This document shows positions 43,430 to 47,253 of a stretch of 64,000 bases of DNA, piece by piece. A program made the position numbers and the translations under genes. Under the pieces are notes generated by a model. That model did no database searches, was not told the DNA's origin, and was given only the letters and a program-made list of their open reading frames with translations. Source of the DNA: Candidatus Pelagisphaera phototrophica (GTDB taxonomy: Bacteria > Verrucomicrobiota > Verrucomicrobiia > Opitutales > Opitutaceae). The stretch spans positions 3,472,001-3,536,000 of the forward strand of contig NZ_CP076039.1 in the NCBI RefSeq assembly GCF_014529625.1. Reading direction: 5' to 3'. Every line of letters begins with the position of its first letter. The first letter of the stretch is position 1.

Positions 43430-44713
43430 CTAGGCCAGCGCCTTCGCCAGAGCCTGGTCGATATCGACGATGATATCGTCTATGTGCTCGATCCCTACGG
43501 AAAGACGCACCAGCTCGGGAGTAATGCCTCCCGCTTTCTGGGCTTCCGCTGAAAGCTGGCTATGGGTGGTAGTCGCAGGATGGATGGCTAGGCTTTTGGC
43601 GTCGCCCACATTGGCCAGATGGCTGAACAGCTCGAGCGAATCGATGAACTTCGATCCGGCTGCGGCACCACCATTAATTCCAAATATCACCATGGCACCG
43701 CCTTTGCCGTCCAAATACTTATCCGCCAAGGCACCACTCTTATTGTCATTAAGGCCCGGATACCTTACCCATTCGACTCCCTCCTTGTCATCTAAATGGT
43801 TAGCCACTGCTTTGGCGTTGGAACAATGACGCTCCATCCGCAACGGGAGGGTTTCTATCCCTTGCAAAAACATCCACGCATTGTCTGGAGAAATACAGGC
43901 CCCCAAGTTGCGCAAAGGAACGGTGCGCATCCTAAGGATGAACGCTAGTGGAGCCAAGGGCTCAGGAAGGTCGTGCCCCCAACGCAATCCGTGGTAGGAG
44001 GAGTCTGGATTGTCATACAAGGGGAATTTTCCGTTGGCCCAATTGAATTTACCTGAGTCAACGACAACCCCGCCTATCCCGTTGCCATGACCGCCAAACC
44101 ATTTGGTCAACGAATGCACGACTATATCCGCGCCGAACTCTATCGGGCGTGTCAGATAAGGCGTCGAAAACGTGGAGTCGACAATTAGAGGGATCCCATT
44201 GTCATGGGCGATCTTGGCAATCGCCTCGAGGTCGGAAATCTCGATGCCGGGATTACTAACGGTTTCGCAAAACAGCGCCTTGGTGTTCTCATCGATCGCT
44301 GAGGCGAAATTTGCGGGATCGGAAGGATCAACAAACTTGGTCGTGATACCCAAATCTGGAAGAATGTCGTTAAATTGTGTATACGTTCCGCCATACAGGT
44401 TGTTGGCCGACACGATATTGTCGCCCGCTTTCGCCACGTTGATGATCGAATAGAAAATTGCCGAGGTACCCGAACTGACCGCCAGAGCCGCTGCACCCCC
44501 TTCGAGCTGAGCGACCCTCTGCTCCAGCACATCCTGAGTCGGGTTCATAATTCGCGAGTAGATGTTTCCGAGCTCCTTCAGCGCAAAGAGATTAGCAGCG
44601 TGCTCGGTGCTATCGAAAACGAAGGAGGAGGTCCGGTAAACCGGGACTCCACGTGAGTGAGTCGTGGGATCCGGTGCCTGACCGGCGTGAAGGCATTGTG
44701 TTTCGAGTTTCAT
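43430..44713 (-). CDS. metY: O-acetylhomoserine sulfhydrylase (MetY type)
   Basis: A 427-residue PLP enzyme of the Cys/Met metabolism family that makes homocysteine from O-acetylhomoserine and sulfide. Features in order: TQCLHAGQAPDPTTHSRGVPVYRTSSF at the start, YSRIMNPTQDVLEQR, ALAVSSGTSAI, SANNLYGGTY, and the PLP lysine in VVHSLTKWFGGHG (near 207). The long insert and 427-residue length favour MetY over cystathionine gamma-synthase. Related enzymes use O-succinylhomoserine. It is divergent from the TonB receptor; I see no SAM riboswitch in the 233 bp between them. Confidence 0.94.
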   Translation of the reverse strand: MKLETQCLHAGQAPDPTTHSRGVPVYRTSSFVFDSTEHAANLFALKELGNIYSRIMNPTQDVLEQRVAQLEGGAAALAVSSGTSAIFYSIINVAKAGDNIVSANNLYGGTYTQFNDILPDLGITTKFVDPSDPANFASAIDENTKALFCETVSNPGIEISDLEAIAKIAHDNGIPLIVDSTFSTPYLTRPIEFGADIVVHSLTKWFGGHGNGIGGVVVDSGKFNWANGKFPLYDNPDSSYHGLRWGHDLPEPLAPLAFILRMRTVPLRNLGACISPDNAWMFLQGIETLPLRMERHCSNAKAVANHLDDKEGVEWVRYPGLNDNKSGALADKYLDGKGGAMVIFGINGGAAAGSKFIDSLELFSHLANVGDAKSLAIHPATTTHSQLSAEAQKAGGITPELVRLSVGIEHIDDIIVDIDQALAKALA

Positions 44714-44863
44714 TAAGGACTGACTTTTGAGGTTGGTTTTCTGCTTCTATGTACCAATACGAAAATTTGACGACGCACTATGAAAAGAGTTTACAGAGTC
44801 GACCAGTCCAAAGTTCACAAACCTTGTTAGGTCCTACTACAATCACACTCTTATTGCTTATTT

Positions 44864-44887
44864 AGTCTCATTATTGATAATGAGACT
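44864..44887. promoter_or_regulatory. Perfect 11-bp inverted repeat (Fur-box-like), IR1
   Basis: AGTCTCATTAT (44864-44874) and ATAATGAGACT (44877-44887) are perfect reverse complements around TG and are followed by TTTTT. The AT-rich TGATAATGA core recalls Fur half-sites and lies 60 bp before a FecA-like receptor gene, so it may be an iron-responsive operator. It could also be a hairpin in the leader RNA. Confidence 0.6.
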
Positions 44888-44890
44888 TTT

Positions 44891-44921
44891 TCTCAAAAAG
44901 CTACTTGACGGCTTTTTGAGA
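44891..44921. promoter_or_regulatory. Second perfect 11-bp inverted repeat, IR2
   Basis: TCTCAAAAAGC (44891-44901) and GCTTTTTGAGA (44911-44921) are perfect reverse complements around a nine-base loop that contains TTGACG, a good -35 match. The repeat lies three bases after IR1 and shares its TCTCA/TGAGA ends. The right arm of IR1 can also pair with the left arm of IR2 (TGAGA with TCTCA, and CTTTTT with AAAAAG). The set can therefore form mutually exclusive stems like an attenuator. Confidence 0.6.
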
Positions 44922-44946
44922 TTTAGTTTCAACTAGATCTTATCAA

Positions 44947-47253
44947 ATGAAAATGGATCTCAACTTTAAGTTCTCAATCGCTCTATTGGGAGGACTTTGC
45001 CTTTCCTTCGATGCCGTTGCACAGGAAGATGAACCACTCGACGTTGCCCATCTGGAGCCTCTTTCGATCATTGGCTCGCGTGAAGATCTCTTCAGCACTA
45101 CTGGATCTGGATATGTCATCGATCATGACTTGATTCAAACCCATGGATACGCAGATATAAACCAAGCTCTCAAACAAGTTCCTGGGGTCTATTTGCGAAC
45201 TGAGGACGGCCATGGCCTTTTCCCCAATATCAGTCTTCGCGGGGTGGACCCAAGCCGAATGTCCAAACTCACCTACATGGAAGACGGGATACTAGCAGCG
45301 CCGTCTTCCTACTCCGCTCCATCCGCGTACTACACGCCCACGGTGGGCCGTATGATTGGTCTGGAAGTCTTGAAAGGCTCAAGTCAAATTCAACACGGAC
45401 CGCACACTACCGGGGGTGTCATCAACTATCTCTCCACACCCATTCCCCACCATAAATCGAGTTACCTGCGCTTCTCGTATGGAACAGAAAATGACACGCG
45501 ACTACATCTATGGACGGGCGACCGCGTCGACTCATCCGCCGGTGAATTCGGCTATTTAGTAGAAACCTACTATCGGGAAACCGATGGGTTCAAGTCTATC
45601 GATTCGACTGCCGGTTTCGATGGATCTTCCAGAGGCACGGGATTCCAAAATCACGACTCAATGCTTAAGCTGAGCTGGTCACCCAAAACGGAAAACCGCC
45701 AGTACTTTGAACTTAAGACCGGGTACATGGACAAGAATGCCGACGAAACCTATCTAGGGCTTTCAACCACGGACTTCCTTAAGAATCGGAATCGACGCTA
45801 TGCGGCTTCTCGTGACGACAACATCGATACGCAGCATTTCAGGAACTACCTACGCTATTCCGTCGCCCTCAGCGACAACGCTTCTTTATCCGCAACCGCC
45901 TACTACAATGCCTTCAATCGGAACTGGTACAAGCTGAAGGAAATTAAAGACATCGATTCCGATGGAGACGGTTTCATCGACAGCACACCCACCGTTCTGC
46001 TCTATCAGGCACTCGCAGGCATCGACGACAACAAGCCTCTGGAGGTGCTACAAGGAATACGAGCGGGCCAGTACGAGTATCGCAACAACAACCGCGGCTA
46101 CATCGCCAAAGGAGTTCAAGCGACGCTTAATGTCGATTTCGACGCAGGGGAAACCGTCCACCATCTCCTCGTCGGAACTCGATTCCATCAAGACCAAGTG
46201 AGGCGCTTCCAGGACGACGTCCAATACTTTCAGGATTCTTCTGGAGCAATCACATCGACGGTATCGGACGGACCCGGAAGCGGAGGCAACCGTTTGCAGG
46301 AATCTGAAGCTACCGCTCTTTTCATAGAAGACACAATCCGTCTTGGAAGATTCTCCATCATACCAGGGCTCCGATACGAGCGTATCGACTACCGCTATAT
46401 AGACTTTGAAAATAACGGAGACAATATTCCGACTGGAGATGCTTCACGAACACTAGACATCTTCGCCCCAGGAATCGGATTCAGCTACCAGAGCGACGAG
46501 AGCTCGAACCTTTTTGCCGGAATCTACCGCGGCTTCTCCGTCCCAGGTCCCCGGTCCGCTTCCCGTCCCGGCCGGCAACTTGACGAGGAGACCAGCATCA
46601 GTTTCGAAACCGGTATCCGCTTCGACAACTCCAAAGGGATCTATGCAGAGCTTGTGGGATTCAATACCCATCTTGACGATCTCGCAACTATCGACAACAT
46701 CGCAACCGGTACCAGTAATCCTCAAAACATTGGGGAAGCGCGATCTCGCGGCGTAGAAGCCATATTCGGTTGGGACCTAACCGCTAAGGGCACATTCGAA
46801 TTTAAAGCTCCCATCTCGGTGAGCGCCACTTATACTGATGCCACATTCAAATCCAACTCCACCGACGTCAACGCCGAGTCTATTTTCGCTGGAGCCGTGA
46901 TCGGAAACGCTTTCCCGTACGTTCCAGAATGGCAGCTCAATCTCGCCGCCAACCTCGAGTTCGATACATTTAGGTTGTCAGCAAATCTCAATTACACTGA
47001 CAGCACCTTCGGCAGCGGCTCCAATTCCATGCAAGAGCTCGACCCCTCAGGCAGTCCAGATGCCCGCTTTGGACTGATTGAAAGTCAATTCATTGTAGAC
47101 CTGTCCGTCAATTACTTCATCAACGAACACGCAGAAGCGTTCGTGAACGTAACCAATCTTCTTGATGAGCAGAGCCTCGCGGGACGCCTCACCGATGGCC
47201 CTCGTCCCAATGCGCCTCGACAAGCGAGCATCGGTATGGGTCTTCGATTCTAA
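44947..47253 (+). CDS. TonB-dependent outer-membrane receptor, FecA-like
   Basis: A 768-residue outer-membrane receptor with signal peptide (residues 1-25, ending at DAVAQ). The plug domain covers about 40-165: INQALKQVPGVYLRTEDG, NISLRGVDPSRMSK, YMEDGI, and LEVLKGSSQIQHGPHTTGGVINY. A 22-strand barrel follows and ends in the terminal Phe of GMGLRF. The plug resembles the ferric citrate receptor FecA more than SusC-type sugar receptors, but no FecA signalling extension is present, so no sigma/anti-sigma pair is expected. Energy could come from ExbB-ExbD at 50144. Two inverted repeats precede the gene. It overlaps the convergent methyltransferase gene by 4 bp. Confidence 0.95.
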   Translation: MKMDLNFKFSIALLGGLCLSFDAVAQEDEPLDVAHLEPLSIIGSREDLFSTTGSGYVIDHDLIQTHGYADINQALKQVPGVYLRTEDGHGLFPNISLRGVDPSRMSKLTYMEDGILAAPSSYSAPSAYYTPTVGRMIGLEVLKGSSQIQHGPHTTGGVINYLSTPIPHHKSSYLRFSYGTENDTRLHLWTGDRVDSSAGEFGYLVETYYRETDGFKSIDSTAGFDGSSRGTGFQNHDSMLKLSWSPKTENRQYFELKTGYMDKNADETYLGLSTTDFLKNRNRRYAASRDDNIDTQHFRNYLRYSVALSDNASLSATAYYNAFNRNWYKLKEIKDIDSDGDGFIDSTPTVLLYQALAGIDDNKPLEVLQGIRAGQYEYRNNNRGYIAKGVQATLNVDFDAGETVHHLLVGTRFHQDQVRRFQDDVQYFQDSSGAITSTVSDGPGSGGNRLQESEATALFIEDTIRLGRFSIIPGLRYERIDYRYIDFENNGDNIPTGDASRTLDIFAPGIGFSYQSDESSNLFAGIYRGFSVPGPRSASRPGRQLDEETSISFETGIRFDNSKGIYAELVGFNTHLDDLATIDNIATGTSNPQNIGEARSRGVEAIFGWDLTAKGTFEFKAPISVSATYTDATFKSNSTDVNAESIFAGAVIGNAFPYVPEWQLNLAANLEFDTFRLSANLNYTDSTFGSGSNSMQELDPSGSPDARFGLIESQFIVDLSVNYFINEHAEAFVNVTNLLDEQSLAGRLTDGPRPNAPRQASIGMGLRF

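Follow-up and report, generated by a model that had tools for sequence, protein, structure and literature searches.

A tandem Fur-type operator probably accounts for two adjacent inverted repeats before a TonB-dependent receptor gene in Candidatus Pelagisphaera phototrophica

Two adjacent inverted repeats, IR1 and IR2, lie between divergent metY-like and TonB-dependent receptor genes in the window, the 64,000-nucleotide stretch of Candidatus Pelagisphaera phototrophica DNA that we analysed (Table 1; positions are those of the window). We consider it highly probable that the element containing them serves the receptor gene as a tandem Fur-type operator, which would place that gene under ordinary iron control. 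Two dyads of the 7-1-7 form would flank the probable -35 element of the receptor promoter. Under iron-rich conditions, a metal-charged dimeric repressor of the Fur family would sit on both dyads and block RNA polymerase; on iron shortage, the repressor would leave and the receptor would be made. The two dyads, their recurrence across the order, their geometry around TTGAC, the lack of the element in genomes without the receptor, and the similar boxes before iron genes are all computed results. From the sequence we infer that Fur would be the protein bound and that repression would be the direction of control.

The two repeats are not due to chance. Their perfect arms and the three-base gap between them lie where an initial annotation of this DNA had placed them, and the window holds no other perfect inverted repeat with arms of at least 11 bases and a loop of 2–12 bases. 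Five shuffles of the whole window held 1, 2, 0, 0, and 0 such repeats, and 1000 shuffles of the intergenic sequence (44714-44946) produced none. No second copy of this whole intergenic region was found in the genome. The cross-pairing of the second arm of IR1 with the first arm of IR2 (TGAGA/TCTCA, CTTTTT/AAAAAG) and the location of TTGACG in the IR2 loop, both pointed out in the initial annotation, are likewise present in the sequence.

Table 1. Coordinates of the receptor element, its neighbouring genes, and two Fur paralogues of the same genome.
Feature	Position	Strand	Description
IR1	arms 44864-44874 / 44877-44887		24-bp palindrome, perfect 11-base arms, loop 2
IR2	arms 44891-44901 / 44911-44921		perfect 11-bp arms, loop 9
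IR1 left part, TTGCTTATTTAGTCTCATTATTG	conserved stretch 44854-44876		genus-level extension
Upstream Fur-type box, ATGAGACTTTTTCTCAA	44880-44896		IR1 right arm and IR2 left arm
Downstream Fur-type box, TTGAGATTTAGTTTCAA	44916-44932		IR2 right arm and AGTTTCA
Possible third box, ATGAAAATGGATCTCAA	44947-44963		over the receptor start codon; 2/14 mismatches in core 44948-44962
Probable -35, TTGACG	44905-44910	+	between the upstream and downstream boxes
TonB-dependent receptor	44947-47253	+	768 aa, plug and barrel; Pfam PF07715, PF00593
metY-like O-acetylhomoserine sulfhydrylase	43430-44713	-	divergent; TIGR01326, 628.8 bits (cut-off 495.1)
Fur paralogue closest to PRK09462	G000:C1:2705297-2705644		
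Fourth Fur paralogue	G000:C1:1377182-1377541		

Our genus set held 11 genomes, five of which (our own, G002, G004, G005, and G007) contain the receptor together with its upstream region; G003 was left out because its contig begins inside the gene. In the four relatives with the receptor, the block 44854-44931 is 85–94% identical to the window, compared to 42–68% for the adjoining intergenic flank. IR1 and IR2 appear to be mostly pieces of two adjacent binding sites and not functional units themselves. The tandem operator that the initial annotation had offered as one reading is supported, but the dyads had been cut in the wrong register. What is conserved is the dyad in which the right arm of IR1 faces the left arm of IR2, which had been listed as an alternative "2:3" pairing, and, 36 bp away, the dyad formed by the right arm of IR2 and AGTTTCA. 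The outer TCTCAA/TTGAGA of IR2 are thereby half-sites of two different boxes, and because such facing half-sites are complementary, IR2 would be largely a by-product of neighbouring boxes, lengthened in our species by pairs that relatives have not kept. Four of its inner five pairs are disrupted in one or more relatives, and no stem is kept there.

The core of the upstream box consists of TGAGACT and TTTCTCA around a single T (TGAGACTTTTTCTCA, 44881-44895). It differs from the order-wide core at 2 of 14 letters in the window, G005, and G007, and at 3 in G002 and G004. The downstream core (TGAGATTTAGTTTCA, 44917-44931) fits the order-wide pattern without a mismatch in the window, G005, G004, and G007 and with one mismatch in G002; genome-wide pattern searches found no other 0-mismatch place in our own genome. 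Compared with the classical E. coli-type 7-1-7 consensus (TGATAATnATTATCA), each box agrees at 10 of 14 letters. The possible third box is also found in G005 and G007 and is absent from the lists for G002 and G004; it may be a coding coincidence only.

Boxes of this kind recur before receptor homologues throughout the order. Our search of the order gave 48 genomes with a receptor match, with G098 omitted (its gene is split over two contigs) and G023 and G032, at roughly 30% identity, compared by eye only. The pattern TTGAGAYTnARTYTCAA was present at 3 or fewer mismatches in 50 of 51 regions upstream of receptor homologues (0 mismatches in 5 regions, 1 in 15, 2 in 16, and 3 in 14), and the upstream region in G084 had no box at this threshold. 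Shuffles matched at 2.5%, permuted palindromes at 0.7%, and the reversed pattern in none of the 51. The pattern was drafted with eleven of these regions already known to us; of the 40 unseen ones, 39 match. The 7-1-7 dyads, such as TTGAGACTGAGTTTCAA, extend to other families of the order, and at least two non-overlapping boxes are found in 36 of the 50 regions. A further half-site lies 6 bp beyond the box, with at least 5 of 6 letters, for 21 of 50 boxes and for 3.4% of controls. We used this extension test in place of the excess of pairs at a 6-bp offset (71 pairs), which is inflated because the pattern overlaps itself at 6. At the downstream box of the window, the extension half-site matches at only 3 of 6 letters. 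Relatives of the receptor at 98% and 85% identity occur in named records, MAGs labelled uncultured Opitutaceae bacterium and Verrucomicrobiia bacterium.

The order-wide regions also suggest where the promoter lies. TTGAC falls within -45 to +50 of the start of the best box in 41 of the 50 regions, and nine other words of the same composition do so in 0–18. The three most frequent of these are CTTGA (18), CAGTT (13), and ACTTG (11); CTTGA and ACTTG overlap CTTGAC, and CAGTT may fall inside a box. Being the reverse complement of TTGAC, with a different composition, a tenth control word, GTCAA (1 of 50), stands outside the nine. A box starts 23–25 bases upstream of TTGAC in 19 of the 41 regions, including the window. 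Given this recurring nearness and spacing, TTGAC is probably the -35 element, with one box upstream of it and the other over the rest of the promoter, which favours the suggestion in the initial annotation of a tandem operator over a promoter with TTGACG as its -35. Within the genus, TTGAC is invariant in the five members with the receptor and reads TTAAC in G006, which has only a receptor remnant. When the regions were aligned on TTGAC, no clear column signal for a -10 element was seen, perhaps because the distances between box and TTGAC differ. As to the exact transcription start, a position about 35 bases after TTGAC would make the receptor mRNA almost leaderless, with neither repeat as part of the RNA.

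Profile matches confirm the earlier naming of the two genes as a TonB-dependent receptor and a divergent metY-like gene. FecA chains (1pnz and 1kmo, about 87 bits) are the only solved chains that match the receptor at E <= 0.001, and the receptor scores under the NCBIfam cut-offs for the FecA equivalog (103.5 vs 1100 bits) and the TonB-siderophore receptor (163.6 vs 223.5). Its Pfam domain list contains no STN signalling domain. The initial annotation had allowed for control of either gene or both, and in our comparisons the element follows the receptor and not metY. G001, G009, and G010 have metY (protein 90–92% identical) and no element. The receptor search gave no match in G001 or G009 and only a remote match elsewhere in G010 (E 7e-4), and the 450 bp beyond metY in these three genomes contain no box at fewer than 4/14 mismatches. 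The distance from metY to an rlmL-like gene is 687 bp in G001, where a 134-codon frame lies between them, 265 bp in G009, and 113 bp in G010. G008 has an rlmL-like gene within 1 kb of a partial metY match that contains one stop, and the element was not found there.

In G006, only a C-terminal remnant of the receptor gene remains between an intact metY and the rlmL-like gene (L164, G006:C12:160000-163000, at about 1510-1900), inside a 299-kb contig, and the receptor ATG is changed. The metY frame is intact and its DNA is 95% identical to that of the window. The element is 84% identical, compared to 85% for the flank, and the half-site changes fall mainly in the left arm of IR1 (four), with a single change each in TTGAC and the downstream box and an intact upstream box. 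Loss of constraint would therefore be visible in the element as a whole, not in both boxes. Nearer to metY, the intergenic region holds a CGCACTATGAAAAGAGTTT-like sequence (44779-44797) that is conserved in four of five genus members, the exception being G007; it may be the promoter of metY or a site for its control.

Similar boxes occur elsewhere in the genome. A search with TTGAGAHTnADTYTCAA at up to 2 mismatches returned 33 forward and 33 reverse rows, compared to 14 and 9 for the reversed pattern (a 2–4x excess), and these rows correspond to 48 distinct places. By a simple ORF caller, 33 of them are inside predicted genes, one overlaps the receptor start, and 14 are outside genes. Among the latter, two precede the receptor, one feoA-feoB, one the fur-sufC-sufB-sufD operon, one the gene of a TonB_C (TonB-like) protein, and two a TonB-plug protein; seven have no evident iron link. 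The boxes before feoA-feoB, the suf operon, and the TonB_C gene have 2 mismatches each, and those away from the receptor have 1–2 in general. The site at G000:C1:3668421 is within a frame found around 3668343. Two box-like sites with similar surroundings (L048 and L056, G000:C1:564737-564932) lie 179 bp apart before one TonB-plug protein.

A second search covered five genomes of other families at 1 mismatch or fewer and gave 11 forward and 14 reverse rows, compared to 1 and 0 for the control. These amount to 15 distinct places, seven of them before the receptor and one, a perfect box in G219, before feoA-feoB. Two are near DUF3450 genes, in G037 and in G119, where the DUF3450 match is under the curated cut-off and 0.7 kb away; DUF3450 genes are often found in TonB/ExbB operons. 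Another place precedes a phosphonate-type ABC binding protein, and the remaining four, including one perfect box (G119:C223), are inside genes or have no evident link. Together with the 7-1-7 dyads, the boxes before iron genes support the Fur-like character that the initial annotation had suspected.

Four proteins of our own genome exceed the PF01475 cut-off of the Fur family, two of which are listed in Table 1. One Fur-family gene (L095, G000:C1:1836000-1841000) is the first gene of an operon that continues with an ABC ATPase (SufC-like by eye) and two SufBD proteins; a box core starts 40 bp before its start, and its best NCBIfam score is to IrrA, below the cut-off. Another (L094, G000:C1:2572100-2574300) lies directly before a katG-looking peroxidase gene and scores best with PerR, again below the cut-off. 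Our results point to iron Fur or a close paralogue as the regulator that would bind the boxes.

The initial annotation had offered an RNA switch as the other possibility, in which IR1 and IR2 would act as mutually exclusive leader hairpins that decide between termination and read-through. The mutually exclusive pairings do exist, both stems fit a simple terminator rule, and predicted folding is strong: the fold of 44840-44950 has z = -5.05, matched by 0 of 200 shuffles, and the genus comparison gave z = -6.19 for the window and -3.77 for G005. However, folding weakens to -2.02 in G002, -1.32 in G004, and -2.46 in G007. For G005 and G002, the predicted folds retain the IR1 hairpin and a shortened IR2, but the IR1 hairpin is gone from the minimum-energy folds of G004 and G007. 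Paired cells on the alignment reach 81.8% for IR1 and 82.8% for IR2, compared to at most 56.1% in slid controls; such an excess is expected, given that the structure was drawn from one of the rows. Out of 11 pairs, IR1 has lost 0 in G005, 1 in G002, 4 in G004, and 2 in G007, and IR2 has lost 1, 2, 3 (two of them gaps), and 4, respectively. These losses are one-sided: the covariation check on the aligned metY-receptor intergenic regions found no pair with compensatory changes in either repeat across six species, a sample of limited power. Nor are the T-runs stable. The TTTTT that follows IR1 persists in G005, G007, and G006 and reads ACTTT in G002 and GCTTT in G004 (broken in two of five relatives), and the TTTA after IR2 becomes TTCA in G005 and G007, TCCA in G002, and TTGA in G004 (altered in four of five). 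A promoter-like site at 44814-44843, the sole match of a simple promoter scan, would put both repeats into RNA, but we dropped it as the receptor promoter because it is at chance level (one found, 0.9 expected) and lies in the unconserved flank. An Rfam search of the intergenic region returned sub-threshold matches only, the best of them far under the gathering scores. On this evidence, an attenuator or riboswitch is very unlikely.

A closer competitor, still clearly the less probable one, is an operator of the same anatomy that serves a different Fur-superfamily metalloregulator (Irr-, PerR-, Zur-, or Mur-like). Such regulators bind related boxes, the genome has four paralogues, and the paralogue whose own promoter carries a box scores best, though below the cut-off, with IrrA. 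PerR and Fur boxes are discussed in PMC3293774. Several box neighbours are nevertheless iron genes (feoA-feoB, the suf operon, the TonB-dependent receptor, and the TonB-like gene), and among the boxes looked at, we met no zinc or manganese system. We find it very unlikely that the element also controls metY divergently or that IR1 alone is the site of a second, sulfur-related regulator. The 24-bp palindrome of IR1, kept with changes in five genus members, is not fully explained by the two boxes, which speaks for such a role. Yet metY does without the element in three genomes, and the G006 element is no better kept than the flank beside an intact metY. A genome search for the IR1 core near iron or sulfur genes, proposed in the initial annotation, yielded besides IR1 only four places at 2–3 mismatches, all inside predicted genes, and we rejected the core as a regulon motif. 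Some observations count against the tandem operator itself: G006, without a working receptor, keeps the upstream box intact and the downstream box with one change; the upstream boxes of G002 and G004 have 3/14 mismatches; G084 has no box; the fit to the classical consensus is 10 of 14 letters in each box; no clear -10 element was seen; the downstream box of the window lacks a good 6-bp extension; most places in our own genome are inside predicted genes, with 1–2 mismatches away from the receptor and only a 2–4x excess over the reversed pattern; and some good boxes have no evident iron link.

The left half of IR1, which is altered in G006, is dispensable for the two boxes, and the right half is part of the upstream box. 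Because TGATAAT, the classical Fur half-site, lies at 44875-44881, 6 bp before TGAGACT, the simplest reading of the left half would be an extended Fur array with further half-sites. It is rather unlikely, though in line with G006 (receptor lost, most changes in the left half, two boxes nearly intact), that the left half works separately, whether as a second promoter (TTGCTT, 16 bp, GATAAT, with its -10 inside the Fur array) or as the site of a second dimeric regulator sharing TGAGACT. If so, the receptor would be under two-input control through one shared half-site.

The Fur box, or iron box, was reportedly cast in the 7-1-7 form by Baichoo and Helmann in 2002. The putative operator differs from that box in having TGAGAYT per half in place of the classical TGATAAT (10 of 14 letters match), in having two boxes 36 bp apart that flank the -35, and in the extra upstream palindromic half-site, which is confined to our genus. 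It is similar in placing 15-bp inverted repeats at a TonB-dependent receptor promoter, in the similar boxes before feoA-feoB and the suf operon, and in the 6-bp overlapping half-sites that are frequent in relatives. The 7-1-7 form is described in PMC3293774, as are overlapping Fur dimers, with which the 6-bp half-site extensions are in line. The receptor resembles the ferric dicitrate receptor FecA in its solved-structure matches and differs from it in falling far short of the equivalog cut-off and in the N-terminal signalling domain, for which the domain list gave no match. For a receptor without that domain, FecI/FecR-type control is presumably not to be expected. Trp-type attenuators share with the element arms able to pair in two ways; unlike them, it shows no compensatory stem changes, its T-runs are not conserved, and its alternative pairing coincides with a conserved DNA dyad.

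The literature that we searched, outside which most subscription journals lie, held no description of Fur boxes or of a Fur regulon in Verrucomicrobia or Opitutaceae; the papers that matched appear to deal with a chlamydial effector and with gut iron homeostasis. The element would thus be a known kind of operator in a lineage for which we found no description in that literature. The idea of an RNA switch gives way to a plain, testable operator, and the order, which includes records labelled Opitutaceae and Verrucomicrobiia, gains a Fur-type box consensus with a recurring TTGAC geometry. The case also carries a caution: adjacent half-sites of different protein binding sites can yield perfect hairpins.
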